Assembly (NCBI GenBank): GCA_021158055.1
Contig: JAGGVJ010000023.1
Coordinates: forward strand, 1 to 30,050
Length of the DNA: 30,050 bases
Source of the DNA: Candidatus Iainarchaeum sp.
GTDB lineage: Archaea; Iainarchaeota; Iainarchaeia; JAGGVJ01
Reading direction: 5' to 3'
The notes under the pieces were generated by a model. It saw nothing but the letters and a program-made list of their open reading frames with translations. It made no database searches and was not told where the DNA came from. The position numbers and the translations under genes were made by a program. This document shows, piece by piece, positions 9,749 to 22,961 of the stretch (its first letter is position 1; each line of letters begins with the position of its first letter).

Positions 9749-10288
9749 ATGATTGAAGAAATCACAAACACCGCGGAACTATTACTGACCACGTTAAACA
9801 ATTTCATTGCAGCCAACTTGTTTCAATGGGGAATTGCACTCATAACACTCATAATCGGGTTTTTTGCCATAAAAATCGTAAGAGCTTACGTGAAAAGGTT
9901 TTTCGACAACGTAAACCTTGACAAAACACTTGAGGTATTTATTCAAAAACTCATAAGAGTCTTTTTGTGGATAATACTTGTAATAATTGTTTTGAGCAAC
10001 CTGGGATTTGACGTAACCGGTTTCATTGCAGGGCTTGGAATACTGGGCTTTATTGTCGGCTTTGCAACAAAAGACGTGCTTTCAAACCTTGCAGCCGGCA
10101 TGTTCCTGCTTTTAAACAGGCCTTTTAAAGTGGGGGACGAGATAAAGGCAGCAAAAATAGAGGGAAAAGTCAAAGCAATCGGAACATCAGCATGCATACT
10201 TATCACTGAAAAAAACGAGTACATAACCATACCAAACTCAAAAATATGGGGCGGTCCGATAACAAACCTTTCCCGCCTGAAAAAATAA
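9749..10288 (+). CDS. Minimal MscS-family mechanosensitive channel
   Basis: This 179-residue inner-membrane channel protein has three predicted spans: about 26-46, 66-86 and the pore helix region about 88-122. The pore region (GLGILGFIVGFATKDVLSNLAAG) keeps the Gly/Ala-rich TM3 packing of MscS. It is followed by the beta-domain signature NRPFKVGDEI and a compact beta domain ending at IPNSKIWGGPITNLSR. The usual C-terminal alpha/beta cage domain is absent, so the protein is far shorter than E. coli MscS (286 residues). Such short forms occur in archaea and should gate on membrane tension. The longer MscS at 16044-17114 has the C-terminal domain. GAGGGA precedes the ATG. Family call firm; conductance properties unknown. 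Confidence 0.85.
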   Translation: MIEEITNTAELLLTTLNNFIAANLFQWGIALITLIIGFFAIKIVRAYVKRFFDNVNLDKTLEVFIQKLIRVFLWIILVIIVLSNLGFDVTGFIAGLGILGFIVGFATKDVLSNLAAGMFLLLNRPFKVGDEIKAAKIEGKVKAIGTSACILITEKNEYITIPNSKIWGGPITNLSRLKK

Positions 10289-12828: not shown

Positions 12829-12864
12829 ATGGAAAAAAAACACAAAATGGAAAAAAAACACAAA
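12829..12864 (+). repeat. 18-bp tandem duplication containing the start codon
   Basis: ATGGAAAAAAAACACAAA is present twice in succession, followed by a diverged third unit beginning ATGGAAATAAAA. It multiplies the start codon in frame and adds two MEKKHK units to the protein. Confidence 0.9.
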
Positions 12865-13488
12865 ATGGAAATAAAAAGCCAAAACCCGATAAACCACCTG
12901 GATCCTGAAAACACGCACGACATAATTGAATTTTACTTTGAAATCAACCACCTGAAACAACTGTTCAGACAAGGGTGGCTCAGGAACGTACCAAAAGACC
13001 AATGCGAGAGCGTTGCAGACCACTCATTCGGAACTGCTTTGCTTGCAATGGTTATCGGAAACGAGCATTTCCCGCAAATAGACATGTCAAAAGCAGTGCA
13101 GATTGCTTTAATTCACGACCTTGGAGAAGTTTACGCGGGAGACCACACTCCGTATCACAACATCAGCCAGGAAGAAAAAAGCAGGCTTGAAAGAGAATCA
13201 ATAAAAAAACTTTTTTTGAAGCTTCCAAAAGGCAAAAAATACATTGAACTATGGGAAGAATTCGAATCAGGCACAACAAACGAAGCAAAATTTGCAAAGC
13301 AAATAGACAAACTTGAAATGGCACTGCAGGCAAGCGTTTACGAACACCGTGGTTATAAAAACATGCAGGAATTCTTTGACGACGCAAAAGAAAAGATAAC
13401 CGACAAAAAACTGCTTGAAATATTCAAAGAAATCGAACCCATACGGAACAACAAGAATCAAACCAAGCCACGTAACAAAATTGACTGA
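12829..13488 (+). CDS. HD-domain 5'-nucleotidase, YfbR/HDDC2-like
   Basis: This 219-residue cytoplasmic metal phosphohydrolase of the HDDC2/YfbR type probably dephosphorylates deoxynucleoside monophosphates. It has the family signature GWLRNVP (49-55), H65 in VADHS, H96-D97 in LIHDLGEVYAGD, E100, and D160 in QIDKLEMALQA. The N-terminus is odd: an 18-base unit starting with ATG is duplicated (12829-12846, 12847-12864), followed by a third, diverged ATG unit, giving MEKKHKMEKKHKMEIK and three possible starts. A TATA-like GTTATTTAAC (12798-12807) is ~26 bases before the first ATG, so a leaderless start at 12829 is favoured. Confidence 0.87.
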   Translation: MEKKHKMEKKHKMEIKSQNPINHLDPENTHDIIEFYFEINHLKQLFRQGWLRNVPKDQCESVADHSFGTALLAMVIGNEHFPQIDMSKAVQIALIHDLGEVYAGDHTPYHNISQEEKSRLERESIKKLFLKLPKGKKYIELWEEFESGTTNEAKFAKQIDKLEMALQASVYEHRGYKNMQEFFDDAKEKITDKKLLEIFKEIEPIRNNKNQTKPRNKID

Positions 13489-13579: not shown

Positions 13580-15421
13580 ATGCCAAACTCTAATACAGAA
13601 AATTACAATACAGAAAACATTATCCTGCTTTCAAAACAAGAATTAACAAAAAAACTTTGGTCAGCCGACCCGCACATCAGGCAATTTCTTAAGAAAAGCA
13701 AAGACCTCCACTGCGCAAGAAACAATTTTTTTGAATATCTAAACGAGCTAGAAAGGCACTACTTCAACATTTTCTCAGACAACCACTTCAAAAACATACA
13801 CATACTGGAAAAAAACAATGCAAAAGAATGCATAAGGGTACTGAAAAACATCATAAGAACCGAAAACGAAAAAATAACAGGGTTCTCTGCACTGAAAAGA
13901 CTATCCGGCCTTGCAAAAGACAAAAACAAGACCCTGCCTAAAATAAGCGAGGGTTTTTTGTGCGAATTTATTTACCTTTTCAAGGGAATTAACGGAAAAT
14001 CAGGCATTCTCCGCCCCATACACAAGGACCCGGACCTGAAAGACGCGAACGAAATCGCAGTCAATCGCTCAAGTTACCTGGACTCATACTCGAAAACAAT
14101 CCAGGAGCATTTTAAAAAATACAAAGACGGGTGCGATGCAGAATTGCTGAAAAGTTCAAAGGCACTTAAAAAAGAAATTCTTGATTACTTTGAATCCACG
14201 GAAAAAGACTGGGAAGACTATTCATGGCAACTCAACCATGTAATCAAAGACAGAAAAACCCTGTCTTCCTTGATCAAACTGAACAAAGATGAAGCAAGCG
14301 GATTAAAGTGCGCTGAAGAAAAAAACATCCCTTTTCAGATAACCCCTTACTACCTTTCACTCTTCAACAAAAACAAAAGGTCTTACCACGACCGCGTCCT
14401 CCGCGCCCAGGTAATCCCAAGCCTTAAGTACTGCTCAGCCATCAAAAAAAACTGTGAATCCGAACTTGATCTGGATTTCATGGGGGAAAAATTCACCAGC
14501 CCAATAAAAAGCATTACAAGGAGATACCCTCAAATACTAATCCTGAAACCGTTTGATTCCTGCCCGCAAATCTGTGTTTACTGCCAGAGAAACTGGGAGA
14601 TAAAAAGCCTTGAGGAAACAAAAACAAACAAAAAAGAAATACAAAAAGCCATTGACTGGATAAAAGACAACGAAAGCATAACAGAAGTTTTGGTAACCGG
14701 CGGGGACCCGCTGACCCTAAACAACAAATACCTGGGGTGGCTGCTTGACGAAATCTCAAAAATAAAACGCGTTGAACGAATAAGAATCGGAACCAGAACA
14801 CTAGTCACTCTCCCTTTCAGATTTGACAAAGAACTGCTGAAAATACTTGAAAAACACCACTGCATCGGCAAAAGAGAGATATGCATCGTAACCCACTTTG
14901 AACATCCAGTGGAAATAACCCCTGACTCGATAAAAGCAATAAAAAAAATAAAAAAACTGGGAATCAGCATTTACAACCAGCAGGTTTTCACATACTACAA
15001 CAGCAAAAAATTTGAAACATCTTTTCTCAGAAAAAAACTAAAACTGTCAGGAATAGACCCTTACTATACATTCAACACAAAAGGAAAAGAAGAAACAATT
15101 GACTTTCGGGTTCCGATTGCAAGAATCGAACAGGAAAGAAAAGAAGAGGCAAGACTCCTGCCCGGCATTGTCCGCACAGACGAGCCCGTCTTCAACGTGC
15201 CAAAACTTGGAAAATCACACTTGAGAGCATGGCAGGACCACGAACCAATCATGGTTTTAAGTAACGGCAAAAGAATCTACCGGTTTTACCCGTGGGAATC
15301 CAAACTCAACCTGACCGATGACTACATTTATACAGACGTGCCAATTTACGACTACTTAAAGAGACTGCACAAAGACAACGAAAACACAAACGATTACCAC
15401 TCAATATGGTACTACTTTTAA
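13580..15421 (+). CDS. KamA-like radical SAM protein (lysine 2,3-aminomutase family), long form
   Basis: This 613-residue protein has a C-terminal half that is a KamA-type radical SAM barrel. It has C328-x3-C332-x2-C335 (CPQICVYC) for the 4Fe-4S cluster, GGDPL at 374-378 in the SAM-binding strand, a TRTLVTLPFRF segment and the Y-N-Q-Q-V-F strand (465-470). Classical lysine 2,3-aminomutase binds PLP through a lysine in a PGGGGK motif. Here the matching place reads VPKLGKSHLRAW (540-551), so K545 is the candidate PLP lysine and the loop is different. The first ~300 residues are mostly helical, charged and unrecognised; KamA itself is ~416 residues. Aminomutase activity on lysine or a related substrate is thus plausible but unproven. 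The gene stands alone, with no companion aminobutyrate or beta-lysine genes visible. Confidence 0.83.
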   Translation: MPNSNTENYNTENIILLSKQELTKKLWSADPHIRQFLKKSKDLHCARNNFFEYLNELERHYFNIFSDNHFKNIHILEKNNAKECIRVLKNIIRTENEKITGFSALKRLSGLAKDKNKTLPKISEGFLCEFIYLFKGINGKSGILRPIHKDPDLKDANEIAVNRSSYLDSYSKTIQEHFKKYKDGCDAELLKSSKALKKEILDYFESTEKDWEDYSWQLNHVIKDRKTLSSLIKLNKDEASGLKCAEEKNIPFQITPYYLSLFNKNKRSYHDRVLRAQVIPSLKYCSAIKKNCESELDLDFMGEKFTSPIKSITRRYPQILILKPFDSCPQICVYCQRNWEIKSLEETKTNKKEIQKAIDWIKDNESITEVLVTGGDPLTLNNKYLGWLLDEISKIKRVERIRIGTRTLVTLPFRFDKELLKILEKHHCIGKREICIVTHFEHPVEITPDSIKAIKKIKKLGISIYNQQVFTYYNSKKFETSFLRKKLKLSGIDPYYTFNTKGKEETIDFRVPIARIEQERKEEARLLPGIVRTDEPVFNVPKLGKSHLRAWQDHEPIMVLSNGKRIYRFYPWESKLNLTDDYIYTDVPIYDYLKRLHKDNENTNDYHSIWYYF

Positions 15422-15464: not shown

Positions 15465-16004
15465 TCAAAGCGGCTCAATTGACGCGTATTTTCCGCTTCC
15501 GATATATGAAATCAACTTCACGCCGTTTTTGCCAAGCTTTAAAACACCTAACTTCGCGTCAAAAAACTTTTCTTCAACGCCGCAGTTTACCACTTCCCCT
15601 ACCACAAGAAAGTGGTCTGAAACCTCAAAAACGTGAATTACCCTGCACTCAAGAAACGCAACGCAGTCGTCAAGGATAATATTGCCGTTTTCAGTAACGG
15701 TTGTCCTGTAGTTCCTCTCCAGAAACTTGTCCTTGTCGCGGCCTGAAACATTCCCGCAGTAAATCACTTCTTTTAACTGGTCCGCTGTCGGGATATTCAC
15801 TGCAAAATAACCACTTGCGCGAATCAACTCAAGCGAAAACCTGTTTTTTGCAACGCTCAACATCACCTGCGCGGGACTGCGTGAGACAGGGGACAGCCAC
15901 GAAACCGAAAAAACACTTCTTTTTTCTTTGTGCCTTGAAGTGACAAGGGAAACCGGGTGGCAATAAAGAAGAATTTCCGGGTTGCTTACAGGTATTTTTG
16001 CCAT
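15465..16004 (-). CDS. Flavin-reductase-like FMN-binding split-barrel protein
   Basis: This 179-residue cytoplasmic protein has the flavin reductase-like fold. PVSLVTSRHKEKRSVFSVSWLSPVSRSPAQVMLSV (about 17-51) is the N-terminal FMN-binding region, where small residues contact the isoalloxazine and phosphate. It is followed by SLELIRASGYFAVNIP (57-72) and a barrel ending in GKYASIEPL. Family members reduce or merely bind flavin and include FMN:NAD(P)H reductases and ferric reductases; the partner here is unknown. It converges on the KamA-like gene and is followed upstream by the MscS gene on the same strand with 39 bases between them, so the two may be co-transcribed. No strong SD precedes the ATG. 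Confidence 0.85.
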   Translation of the reverse strand: MAKIPVSNPEILLYCHPVSLVTSRHKEKRSVFSVSWLSPVSRSPAQVMLSVAKNRFSLELIRASGYFAVNIPTADQLKEVIYCGNVSGRDKDKFLERNYRTTVTENGNIILDDCVAFLECRVIHVFEVSDHFLVVGEVVNCGVEEKFFDAKLGVLKLGKNGVKLISYIGSGKYASIEPL

Positions 16005-16043: not shown

Positions 16044-17114
16044 TCAATTGTCCCTGTTGAGATAAATTGTCTGGGTCGGGAACGCCATCTCAATTGCTGC
16101 TTTTTCAAACTGTTCCTTTATGGTAAAATTAATGCTTTGCTGGGTGTCCATGAATTTGTTGTAGTCGCCTGAACTGACAAAGTAAACAACTTCAAAATTC
16201 AAACTGAAATCCCCAAAGTTTTTGAAGTGCGCGCGGCTGAAATCCGCAAGCTCTTCTTTTTCAATAATTTTTTCAACCATTCCGGGAATACTCTTCAGTT
16301 TCTTGACAGGTGTGTCATAAGTGACGCCAAAAGGAAACACAACCCTTCTCTTTTCCATTTTCTTGTAATTATTAACCCTTGCCTCGGTCAATTCCTTGTT
16401 TGAAATGATAAGCTCCTGGCCCTGAAGAGTCTTTATTTTGGTTGATTTTATGCCGATTTCCTTTACTGTCCCGGAATCGGTTCCGACAACAATAAAATCA
16501 CCCACCCTGAAAGGCTTGTTGAAATAAATTGAAAAAGAAGCAAAAATGTCAACCAGAATATTCTGCAATGCAAAAGCAATTGCGATTCCGCCGATTCCAA
16601 GCCCTGCCACAAGAGTCGTAACGTCAAAGCCGATGTTTGAAAGGATAAGCACTGCCGCAACAAACCACAATCCAATTTTCAATGCCTGGTTCAAAAACAA
16701 TATGACTGAATGGTCGGTTTTTTTCTCTTCCTGCTGCCTTTTTTCAATAATTTTTCCGCTGCCGTAATCAATGACTTCGTGAAGCGCTTTCACTGCATAG
16801 AAAACAATTGCAACAATAAGCAAATATTCAATTCCCACACTCACCAATCCGGGAACATTAAGGAACTGAAGTGAAACATACATCGAAACAATGACATAAA
16901 AATACCAGTTTATCCTGTCAATGAAATGAATAAACACGTCATCCAGATCATTTTTGGTTTTCTCAAAAAGAGTCTTCAGCCTGGAAACAACAATGTACTT
17001 GAAAATCTTCATTGCCGAAATCAATACGACAAAAAGCAGAAGGCAAAAAACGTAATCAAAAACAGTGTTTCCGAAAAAAGTACTTGCCATTATTTCAGGG
17101 GAAATCAAATCCAT
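16044..17114 (-). CDS. MscS-family mechanosensitive channel, full-length
   Basis: This 356-residue membrane channel has hydrophobic spans near 14-40, 70-90, 92-112 and 143-165, then the pore helix (LVAGLGIGGIAIAFALQNILVDIFASF), the beta-domain signature NKPFRVGDFI and STKIKTLQGQELIISNKEL. The C-terminal alpha/beta region extends to the end (VVFPFGVTYDTP, FSLNFEVVYFV, the terminal FPTQTIYL). It probably releases solutes on hypo-osmotic shock. Compared with the 179-residue MscS at 9749 it has extra N-terminal spans and the full C-terminal domain. A TATA-like AAATAAATA (minus strand, 17137-17146) is ~26 bases before the ATG and no SD is seen, so a leaderless transcript is likely. Confidence 0.9.
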   Translation of the reverse strand: MDLISPEIMASTFFGNTVFDYVFCLLLFVVLISAMKIFKYIVVSRLKTLFEKTKNDLDDVFIHFIDRINWYFYVIVSMYVSLQFLNVPGLVSVGIEYLLIVAIVFYAVKALHEVIDYGSGKIIEKRQQEEKKTDHSVILFLNQALKIGLWFVAAVLILSNIGFDVTTLVAGLGIGGIAIAFALQNILVDIFASFSIYFNKPFRVGDFIVVGTDSGTVKEIGIKSTKIKTLQGQELIISNKELTEARVNNYKKMEKRRVVFPFGVTYDTPVKKLKSIPGMVEKIIEKEELADFSRAHFKNFGDFSLNFEVVYFVSSGDYNKFMDTQQSINFTIKEQFEKAAIEMAFPTQTIYLNRDN

Positions 17115-19847: not shown

Positions 19848-22800
19848 TTACTCAACAAACTCTGCTTCTACTTTCACGTAACTTATCCTGTTCAAAGGGT
19901 CATTGCTTATTATTGCTATTTCCTTCTCGTAAACTTCCCCCGCCTGATAGCTTTCTAAAGATTCAAATTGACGGAAAAAATAAAACCCAATCATCTGCCT
20001 TTCCCCGGGTTCAAGAGTCATGTAGCTTTCGTCCGGTTTCCTGCCTTCACAGCCCTCACAAGGCGGGAATTCAACTGAATCTGAAGTTGCCCTAAAAAAC
20101 AATGCAGAGTTGCCTTCGTTTTTGACAATGAATTCTTCTGAATTTTTCCCAAGCAAACTTTTTTTGTCCTGAACTTTTCCAAAGTGAATTATGTTCCTGT
20201 CAACAGATAACTTTGGTTTGCCTTCCTGCACATCGTACCTCAACTTCAGAGTCGGGTCCCCCAGCAAAGTCCTCGTAATACCCCAACTTTCTTTAAAGTA
20301 ATCCCCAAAAGTCACTCCCGCTGCCAACGGGAACAAATTATCCAGGAATTCACTCTCAAAAATACACGTGTCTGTGCACCCGTAAACAACTAACCCGTTG
20401 CCTGAAAAAAGATACGCTCCACCAATATAATTTCTACTGGTGAAATCGCAAAGATTGCAACTTTTTAACCAGTAGAACCCGGGCTTTGGTTCTGTTTGCT
20501 TGATATTTCCTGTGAATATGTTTTCTTCGTGCTGGTCCGGTGAACCGTGGCCGTTATATACCACAATTTCATAGGGCTTGCTTAATTTTTCAAGGTATTC
20601 CGCGTCTTTTTGAAGCGGGTCGTCTTCTTCGCTTACGCGGATAAGCTCAATTTCTTCGGGTTTGAACAAGTTTTGAGAAACCATTGAATTTAGCCCGGTT
20701 ATGTATTTTTCTTTTATGAAATCAACGGGTTTTTCCCTGAATTCAAGCAATGGATCATATACAAGTCCGTTATTCAAAAAAGCCAATTTACCTGTTCTGT
20801 ACAAGTGGTTTCTTTCAAAATATCTCTTCAGCAAATCAACCCGTTCTTCCTCACTTGCTTCCTGCTCACTTGTTCCCTGCGCCCAGGCAGTGGGTGCAGT
20901 CAATCTCCCCACCCACACTTTCGGGTTTTTCCATTTTAAGTTCATTAACGAAGTATTGCCGGTGACTTCGCCTGAATCCGGGTCAATAGCCACTACATTT
21001 TCCTGAATACGGGCTGTGCAGGTGTCCAGATTGTAATAAACAGAACCCGAAGGCAGCTGATATTCGTCAAGAACAACATATTCATCTTCAATGCGCTGAA
21101 AAGGCTTGCTTAGATAATCATAACCTTCATATTCTTCTTCATAATAGCTTTTTATTTCTTCAATAATCTCCTGGCTAAGCGGCTTGCAGGACTCCTCAAT
21201 ATCAGCGTAGTAAAAATCACCGGAAGTGCCTTTGAGGGCATAGCAAACATCTGACACCATTCTCGACGGCTTGAAAAACAGCACGAAAGGTATTTTCCCC
21301 ACAAGAAGCACCCCGGTTACAGAATCCTTGTTTTCAAGAATTACCTCTTTTATCCGCTCCGGAGACTCCCATTCGCCGTGATAGATCTCCACGTCAAAAC
21401 CAAGTTCGTTTTTAACGTCTTCAGAATATGTGTCCAAGTAAGGTTGGAGGGATCCAAATATTTTCTCCTCTACAAAGACCAAAACTTTACAGCTTTCAGA
21501 ATTGCATGCCGGCTCAACAAAAGGAGGGACAAACCGCTCGACAAACAACCCGCTCAACTCAGAAAAAAGCATGGGCTCTTCCGACCCTCTCTTCAGGACA
21601 AACTCAAACAACCTGGCTGCCTGCTCTCTTCCGGTTGCGTCAATTTTTATCCAGAAAGTGTCTGAAAACTCTTTTTCAACAACGATATTGTTGATTTTGG
21701 AACCGGCGTCAACTGTTATTATTGTCCGCGGGGTTATCCTTGAATCGTTGATTAATGACCAACGCAGGTCATTAAATGACCTGATCACGTCATCAAAATC
21801 ATCAAAATTTTTCTCTGAAGGCAGCTTGTCTCTTTTTATCACATGCGTTAAAGGAATAAATCCGACTGCAACTTTTTCTAAAATTTGTTTTGTTTCATTG
21901 GTGTCTGTCACCACAAAAGTGTTCAGCGGGTTCAAGGCGTTTCCGAGATTCTCCAGGTTTACTTCGCAATATTCCGGCAACTCTTTTTTGTCTTTTATTT
22001 GGAGTGAAATATAACTTGAACCTGCTAAATAATCCTTGTATTTCATTGTCAGATCAAAAACGTATTCCCCGCAGGATTCGCTGAAAGGGACTTCATTGAA
22101 ATTTGTGTAAAACACATCGTCTAAAAGAGGCTTGACTGACAAATCATCATCACTGTAGAGGATTCCCGGAAAATCTGAAAAAAATGACCCGCTTTCTATC
22201 CTTTCAAGCTTGACATTCGAAGCGCTGAACGGCTCGGCAAAATCGTCAAAAGAAGCATACTTTAACCTTGCCTTGAATCCGTTTTCAAGCTCAGACCTTA
22301 ATTTGCTCCAGACCCCCCTCATGGATTCCAGAAATTGGTCTGGCAGGGCTTCACTTTCAAGCACTTTTTCAAGCAGGTTCCTGTAATCGCAGTAAGAACA
22401 GTCCAATTGCGCAACTTCAGGCGACTGCCGAAGCGACTCAAGCAAATGCCGCCTCAACTGCACTTGCGCCAGAATCTGGGCTGCGTCACAAAAGTTTTTT
22501 TCACAGGAACCCATTATTTCAAGAAGTCCTTCCGATGAAAGTTTCCCGTATTCAATAGTGATATCCTTTGGACTCTTCAAACTAAAGTATTCTGTCTTGT
22601 AACTTGTCGGAAAAGTTTTGCTGTCATCCACGGTAAAATTTAAGTTTCCAGCAACCCGAAGCCCGTCGCCAGCCCCGTCAATGTGGTTGGAGGTATTCGT
22701 TGATTTTTCCTGAAACAGTTCAAGGCATCTCTGCCTGTATTGAGAGTATTCCCCGACCAGCTTTTCGCAATCATCTTCTGTTATTGCCCCGCCGGCTTTC

Positions 22801-22961
22801 AACCCTTCAAAGCACTGGTCCTGCTGTTGCTTGGTCGGAAGGTCAATGCAGTCTTTTATCTTTGAAACCCTGTCTTTTTCCCCGAACAACTCTCCAAGAC
22901 AGCCGGAAACCAACAAAACAAAAATTAGTGCTGATGCAAGCAAAACTTTTTGACCAAACAT
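19848..22961 (-). CDS. Secreted lipoprotein with gingipain-like C25 peptidase domain and Ig-like C-terminus
   Basis: This 1037-residue exported protein has a lipobox LVSGC placing the lipidated cysteine at C21. A short Cys module follows (C38/C50 as C-x11-C, C65/C79). The middle (about 490-870) resembles C25 cysteine peptidases (gingipains): LLVGKIPF (552-559), the catalytic-His motif YNGHGS with H805, and SCNLCDF with C835 about 30 residues later, the spacing of the His-Cys dyad. The end (about 925-1037) is an Ig-like strand domain of the ASPM/SPD-2/Hydin type (IIHFGKVQ ... FIVKNEGNSALFF ... MTLEPGERQMIGFYF). It probably acts at the cell surface as a protease or processing enzyme. A minus-strand TATA (near 22989) ~26 bases before the ATG implies a leaderless message. 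Activity is not proven. Confidence 0.82.
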   Translation of the reverse strand: MFGQKVLLASALIFVLLVSGCLGELFGEKDRVSKIKDCIDLPTKQQQDQCFEGLKAGGAITEDDCEKLVGEYSQYRQRCLELFQEKSTNTSNHIDGAGDGLRVAGNLNFTVDDSKTFPTSYKTEYFSLKSPKDITIEYGKLSSEGLLEIMGSCEKNFCDAAQILAQVQLRRHLLESLRQSPEVAQLDCSYCDYRNLLEKVLESEALPDQFLESMRGVWSKLRSELENGFKARLKYASFDDFAEPFSASNVKLERIESGSFFSDFPGILYSDDDLSVKPLLDDVFYTNFNEVPFSESCGEYVFDLTMKYKDYLAGSSYISLQIKDKKELPEYCEVNLENLGNALNPLNTFVVTDTNETKQILEKVAVGFIPLTHVIKRDKLPSEKNFDDFDDVIRSFNDLRWSLINDSRITPRTIITVDAGSKINNIVVEKEFSDTFWIKIDATGREQAARLFEFVLKRGSEEPMLFSELSGLFVERFVPPFVEPACNSESCKVLVFVEEKIFGSLQPYLDTYSEDVKNELGFDVEIYHGEWESPERIKEVILENKDSVTGVLLVGKIPFVLFFKPSRMVSDVCYALKGTSGDFYYADIEESCKPLSQEIIEEIKSYYEEEYEGYDYLSKPFQRIEDEYVVLDEYQLPSGSVYYNLDTCTARIQENVVAIDPDSGEVTGNTSLMNLKWKNPKVWVGRLTAPTAWAQGTSEQEASEEERVDLLKRYFERNHLYRTGKLAFLNNGLVYDPLLEFREKPVDFIKEKYITGLNSMVSQNLFKPEEIELIRVSEEDDPLQKDAEYLEKLSKPYEIVVYNGHGSPDQHEENIFTGNIKQTEPKPGFYWLKSCNLCDFTSRNYIGGAYLFSGNGLVVYGCTDTCIFESEFLDNLFPLAAGVTFGDYFKESWGITRTLLGDPTLKLRYDVQEGKPKLSVDRNIIHFGKVQDKKSLLGKNSEEFIVKNEGNSALFFRATSDSVEFPPCEGCEGRKPDESYMTLEPGERQMIGFYFFRQFESLESYQAGEVYEKEIAIISNDPLNRISYVKVEAEFVE

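Follow-up and report, generated by a model that had tools for sequence, protein, structure and literature searches.

The window analysed here, a 30,050-nucleotide stretch of archaeal DNA, encodes a long KamA-type radical SAM protein (P0001), and the question it raises is which substrate this protein acts on and to what end. Because its pocket is of the glutamate type and its relatives often lie beside salt-stress genes, P0001 may well make a protective solute, beta-glutamate. It is best explained as an enzyme that resembles glutamate 2,3-aminomutase (Eam), depends on SAM, a [4Fe-4S] cluster and PLP, and yields a compatible solute, and we put the probability of this reading as a whole at about 0.5. 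That P0001 functions as a 2,3-aminomutase is very likely. To judge by the pocket residues, an acidic amino acid is the likely substrate, and glutamate specifically is slightly favoured. A role in osmotic adaptation is probable.

The Gene and Its Genomic Setting

The P0001 reading frame contains no frame break (Table 1) and is the single match of its kind in its own genome (1.15 Mb, 95% complete). It is neither a chance ORF nor a broken gene, since full-length homologues with 52–61% identity were found in several phyla. Contamination of the contig was considered unlikely. The neighbouring genes encode proteins of archaeal character (TFB-like, L35Ae-like and Trm1-like, by-eye reading of the sequences), the GC content of the gene resembles that of its surroundings, and the two TATA-like boxes upstream are unique in the window. 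The second box is so spaced that transcription would begin at the ATG or close to it, which suggests a leaderless archaeal transcript.

The sole osmotic neighbours in the window are two MscS genes, which lie outside any operon with the P0001 gene. The HD phosphohydrolase gene upstream opens with a short tandem repeat (MEKKHKMEKKHKMEIK), and its true start may therefore be a later ATG. Elsewhere in the window (19848–22961), a 1037-aa predicted lipoprotein contains the motifs VYNGHGSPDQ and SCNLCDF, which recall caspase-like or C25 peptidases.

Searches of the whole 95%-complete genome gave no match to AblB (TIGR03827) and no glutamine synthetase, so that N-acetyl-beta-lysine and beta-glutamine are unlikely products in this organism. 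AblB is the usual companion of archaeal AblA, yet it is not required of the enzyme. The original prediction had remarked that no beta-lysine acetyltransferase is adjacent to the gene, and this held both for the neighbours and for the genome.

Table 1. Features of the P0001 locus, with positions given in the window.
Feature	Position	Strand	Basis or remark
Long KamA-type radical SAM aminomutase (P0001, 613 aa), predicted	13580..15421	+	ORF (ATG at 13580, stop at 15421) and profile searches
All-helical N-terminal region, residues 1–193	13580..14158	+	Predicted model, profile and sequence searches
LAM-like catalytic core, residues 194–575	14159..15304	+	2A5H: Z 42.8, rmsd 2.1, 339 aligned
C328-P-Q-I-C332-V-Y-C335, radical SAM [4Fe-4S] ligands (CX3CX2C motif)	14561..14584	+	Motif, LAM alignment
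Lys501, position of LAM Asp293 (side-chain recognition)	15080..15082	+	LAM alignment, family alignment
Asn539, in line with LAM Asp330 or one column away	15194..15196	+	Family alignment
Altered PLP loop V-P-K-L-G-K545	15197..15214	+	K545 = LAM Lys337 (PLP Schiff base)
TATA-box-like TTTTTATATAA	13535..13545	+	Only two copies in the 30-kb window, 0.03 expected
Second TTTTTATATAA	13551..13561	+	Copy nearer ATG 13580
MscS-type mechanosensitive channel, two genes downstream, opposite strand	16044..17114	-	Neighbour annotation
Short second MscS-type channel, 3.3 kb upstream	9749..10288	+	Neighbour annotation
HD_3 / YfbR-like phosphohydrolase, upstream neighbour, no known part in the system	12829..13488	+	Neighbour annotation
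Flavin reductase-like protein, convergent neighbour, no known part in the system	15465..16004	-	Neighbour annotation

Family Assignment and Active Site

P0001 passes the cut-off of the NCBIfam model for the KamA family (TIGR00238; 307.9 against 199.2 bits), which also matches all 28 long homologues; Pfam recognised the radical SAM core only. Among the models of characterised enzymes, the glutamate 2,3-aminomutase (TIGR04368, Eam) scores highest with 261.2 bits (equivalog cut-off 650), followed by the lysine 2,3-aminomutase (TIGR03820, AblA; 206.7 bits, cut-off 525), the arginine 2,3-aminomutase (160 bits, far under its equivalog cut-off) and EpmB (TIGR03821; 134.1 bits, cut-off 369). P0001 fails each of these cut-offs. 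The structure model, built by AlphaFold with 28 natural homologues (pLDDT 89, pTM 0.88), has the core fold of lysine 2,3-aminomutase (LAM, KamA/AblA; 2A5H). Together with the CX3CX2C motif and the family score, this bears out the earlier description of a KamA-like enzyme with a radical SAM core.

The roles of the LAM residues, including that of Asp293 and Asp330 as the pair which recognizes the lysine side chain, are those that we take from the 2A5H structure. The equivalents of Arg134, Gln258 and Lys337 are all found in P0001: Arg337, two residues past C335, lines up with the carboxylate binder Arg134, while Gln467 and Lys545 occupy the positions of Gln258 and Lys337. These three residues and the cluster ligands C328, C332 and C335 are invariant in the long homologues (28/28). 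By alignment, the PLP Schiff-base lysine is kept as K545; an enzyme without PLP, which had been suggested, was rejected because this lysine is invariant. The loop that precedes it is altered as originally described, with VPKLGK replacing PGGGGK at the cost of a one-residue deletion. Across the long clade it reads [VLI]P[KRG][LIM]GK, with constant Pro, Gly and Lys. At the position of LAM Arg116, a PLP phosphate contact, Ile or Val is found in the clade and Ile in P0001. The C-terminal Cys ligands of LAM are absent.

The pocket also differs from that of LAM. Lys501 and Asn539, invariant in the long family (28/28), replace Asp293 and Asp330, although the pairing of Asn539 with Asp330 requires a one-residue gap and the glutamate-type proteins have Thr there. 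The latter are nine proteins which score 571–592 bits with TIGR04368, all under its cut-off of 650; they were used as proxies for Eam since a search of about 970 genomes, a number that includes some double counts, gave no sequence above that cut-off. In the KamA alignment, position 293 is Lys in all nine proxies and Asp in the AblA/LAM-like, arginine-type (BlsG) and EpmB proteins; six divergent KamA proteins of other types have Asp (three) or Arg, Glu or Met (three). P0001 and the proxies share an FN[CT]K motif that contains this Lys (FNTK and FNCK, respectively). Ruzicka and Frey reportedly found in 2007 that a Lys (Lys332) and an Asn stand at the Asp293 and Asp330 positions in the C. difficile glutamate 2,3-aminomutase. 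With Lys and Asn in place of both aspartates, the pocket would favour an acidic or neutral substrate. The earlier suggestion of an amino acid other than lysine is thus supported by a pocket that would suit an acidic one, and by model score and chemistry glutamate appears to be the leading candidate.

The likeness to Eam extends to a segment ahead of the core. P0001 differs from Eam in its additional N-terminal domain (about 155 residues) and in its separate tree branch, and from the Eam-type proxies in its PLP loop and C-terminal tail. Since the Eam score is far under the cut-off, and since the long clade and the glutamate-type proteins stay separate in the tree, the shared Lys may be convergent.

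The N-Terminal Region

About 300 residues had been described as lacking a recognised domain, which proved to be too large a figure. Residues 194 to about 327 superpose on LAM's own N-terminal part (2A5H residues 3 onward), and residues 157–205 align with the start of TIGR04368, an equivalent segment being visible in the glutamate-type proteins. Therefore the truly extra part is residues 1 to about 155, and at most 1–193; measured against LAM it amounts to about 190 residues. It is all helical in the AlphaFold model, and among 14 family members W27, L37, E58, N96, G125, L133, G136, R163 and D168 are invariant.

A sequence search of the PDB with this region returned nothing convincing (best E 0.37), and in the fold comparison of the whole model the matches were taken up by radical SAM chains. 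The commonest Pfam match was NAT, found in 4 of the 14 members with a best E of 5e-6. In the window copy, which matches with an E of 0.02, the hit spans about 70 residues against a model of 168 positions, and for this reason NAT was not accepted as the N-terminal domain.

The Long KamA Clade and Its Distribution

In a maximum-likelihood tree of KamA proteins, a 704-aa relative from gut Bacteroidales joins the 28 long proteins in a single clade (support 100/100), which branches away from the LAM, glutamate-type, arginine-type and EpmB proteins. The distinct subfamily that had been proposed is supported by this tree, and no characterised long aminomutase came to light as an orthologue of P0001. 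The long clade is a KamA lineage with a glutamate-type pocket which, on the criteria applied, is not LAM and fails the Eam equivalog cut-off. Its raw identity is 33–36% to the glutamate-type and 32–37% to the LAM-like set. The 704-aa protein (WP_009275016.1), a divergent long type on a very long branch, resembles P0001 in its FSVK motif, its NLPAIGK loop with Asn and Lys, and its IW-Y tail; it differs in that core identity is 36% and the N-terminal part can be aligned only partly.

A scan of bacterial and archaeal genomes revealed 14 relatives, 13 of them near full length and 52–61% identical. Their hosts are Bacteroidetes, Fibrobacter/Chitinispirillaceae, Wallbacteria, Spirochaetes, UBP16 and a record labelled Euryarchaeota. 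Further long members were found in 14 of 247 sampled Spirochaetota genomes, in 3 of 395 sampled Bacteroidota genomes and, at 43% identity, in one complete archaeal genome. In the window organism's own class, none of the other genomes sampled yielded a full-length copy. So scattered a distribution suggests that the window's lineage acquired the gene horizontally. Viral contigs contained no relative, and the copies found on plasmids are KamA proteins of less than 36% identity, the 704-aa Bacteroidales type among them. On a Parabacteroides distasonis plasmid (NZ_OY725748.1), an NhaC Na+/H+ antiporter is encoded three genes downstream of the gene for the 704-aa KamA (60642–62756). An Ilyobacter polytropus plasmid has a gene annotated ablA (L157:1453–3603) whose 716-aa product is of a size that suits a LAM-AblB acetyltransferase fusion.

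Salt-Stress Genes and a Riboswitch Near the Long KamA Genes

Examination of 31 long KamA loci, the window included, showed an osmotic gene within two genes at seven of them. An OtsA-OtsB fusion for trehalose synthesis adjoins the KamA gene at L019 (32 nt), L020 (99 nt) and L097 (divergent), and at L097 an NhaA antiporter gene lies 38 nt downstream. MscS genes are found at L022 (31 nt downstream) and L028 (two genes upstream), and a Na+/H+ exchanger gene at L030 (28 nt). In a control of 40 regions from the carrier genomes, 7 of 514 anchors (1.4%) had an osmotic gene within two genes; against this rate the binomial p is about 2e-7, or about 4e-6 with six loci, values which are optimistic because the osmotic families were chosen after the neighbours had been seen. 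The spread of these neighbours over unrelated phyla and in differing arrangements is stronger than the p-values. Moreover, an nhaA-I riboswitch was found at L025, 151 nt upstream and on the same strand as the long KamA gene (43.1 bits, gathering score 37); none of the other loci had a convincing riboswitch upstream. For the window's own organism, an osmotic role would be suggested by the proximity of MscS and by analogy with the relatives.

Such an arrangement has precedents. Na+ riboswitches have been reported ahead of ablA and eam and tied to osmoprotectants (PMC9337991), while nhaA-I RNAs sense Li+ and, in some variants, Na+, and are sometimes found ahead of trehalose-6-phosphate synthase genes (PMC9646797). 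Methanoperedens is described as having a kamA-ablB operon that salt induces and that also carries an MscS gene (PMC11337218). Beta-glutamate itself is a near-inert osmolyte of methanogens and is abundant in marine species; a 2005 review gave no full pathway for its biosynthesis, which it left unresolved, and early NMR data counted against methanogens using a glutamate aminomutase (PMC1224877). In Methanohalophilus, glutamine synthetase (GS) converts beta-glutamate to beta-glutamine (PMC1224877).

Other genes were also observed near members of the clade. Those for CitMHS-type transporters adjoin or lie near the KamA gene at three loci (L018:3172–4440, L030:6430–7689 and L028:5263–6636, the last with weaker NhaB similarity), and their products could be ion or dicarboxylate transporters tied to the solute. 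In a spirochaete, a glutamine synthetase gene (L093:6356–7648) lies upstream of the long KamA gene, and a type III GS gene lies three genes away in UBP16 (L019:1000–3192).

Alternative Explanations

The reading as a beta-glutamate-forming enzyme was weighed against others. The same mechanism could act on another acidic or polar amino acid, such as aspartate, glutamine, 2-aminoadipate or a glutamyl derivative, and give a solute or a building block. The Lys/Asn pocket would tell of its partner no more than that it is non-cationic, and the long clade is equally far from the glutamate-type and the LAM-like proteins. We know of no osmotic use for the beta products of these amino acids. Beta-glutamate, in contrast, is a known osmolyte (PMC1224877), and the top-scoring characterised model is that of the glutamate enzyme, which makes another substrate of this kind unlikely. 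A little less likely still is a beta-amino acid enzyme for wall, lipid or natural-product biosynthesis, with the osmotic neighbours a coincidence. Most of the 31 loci do lack an osmotic neighbour within two genes, and a glutamate 2,3-aminomutase has been proposed to act in the biosynthesis of incednine (PMC11284099). However, at the loci examined no recurrence of NRPS, PKS or wall genes was observed beside the clade's genes, and coincidence would have to account for the varied osmotic neighbours in unrelated phyla as well as for the L025 riboswitch.

It is improbable that P0001 is a lysine 2,3-aminomutase whose pocket has been rewired and which supplies the synthesis of N-acetyl-beta-lysine or of some other product of beta-lysine. 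Fold, PLP lysine and catalytic residues are as in LAM, and the ablA/ablB pathway is likewise osmotic, its genes in Methanoperedens having MscS as a neighbour (PMC11337218). Yet both aspartates that bind the epsilon-amino group are invariantly replaced, by a positive Lys and an Asn; the AblA score is less than half of its cut-off, the genome lacks AblB, and the C-terminal Cys ligands are missing. Modification of a protein-bound lysine, also raised in the original prediction, was not supported. It would make P0001 an EpmB-like enzyme that docks its substrate protein through the helical N-terminal domain, and the size of this extra region and its conservation through the clade would suit such a function. 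EpmB and BlsG share the KamA superfamily core with P0001, but both retain Asp at position 293 and P0001 is far under their cut-offs. Nor was efp or another protein-substrate gene seen recurring beside the clade's genes at the loci examined, and an EpmB-like function is accordingly very improbable.

Proposed Reaction and Its Significance

If P0001 is a glutamate 2,3-aminomutase-like enzyme, the cluster at C328/C332/C335 would cleave SAM to give a 5'-deoxyadenosyl radical, and the amino group of the substrate would form an imine with the PLP held by K545. The alpha-carboxylate would be held by Arg337 and the side-chain carboxylate by Lys501 (with Asn539). The radical would then abstract a hydrogen from C3, the amino group would shift from C2 to C3, and return of the hydrogen would yield beta-glutamate (3-aminoglutarate). 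This product, hardly metabolised, would build up as a compatible solute when the cell is under salt or osmotic stress.

A wider proposal is tentative. The scattered, N-terminally extended clade may make the osmolyte beta-glutamate in uncultured bacteria and archaea, a tiny-genome archaeon included, under ion-responsive control, with a pocket change that arose independently of Eam and an N-terminal domain that is a new regulatory or assembly module. With its glutamate-type pocket and recurring salt-stress context, the long clade is a concrete candidate gene family for beta-glutamate synthesis, and its relatives occur in organisms as different as gut Bacteroidales and a small-genome archaeon. 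For these proteins, the glutamate reading would correct the default annotation as 'lysine 2,3-aminomutase'.
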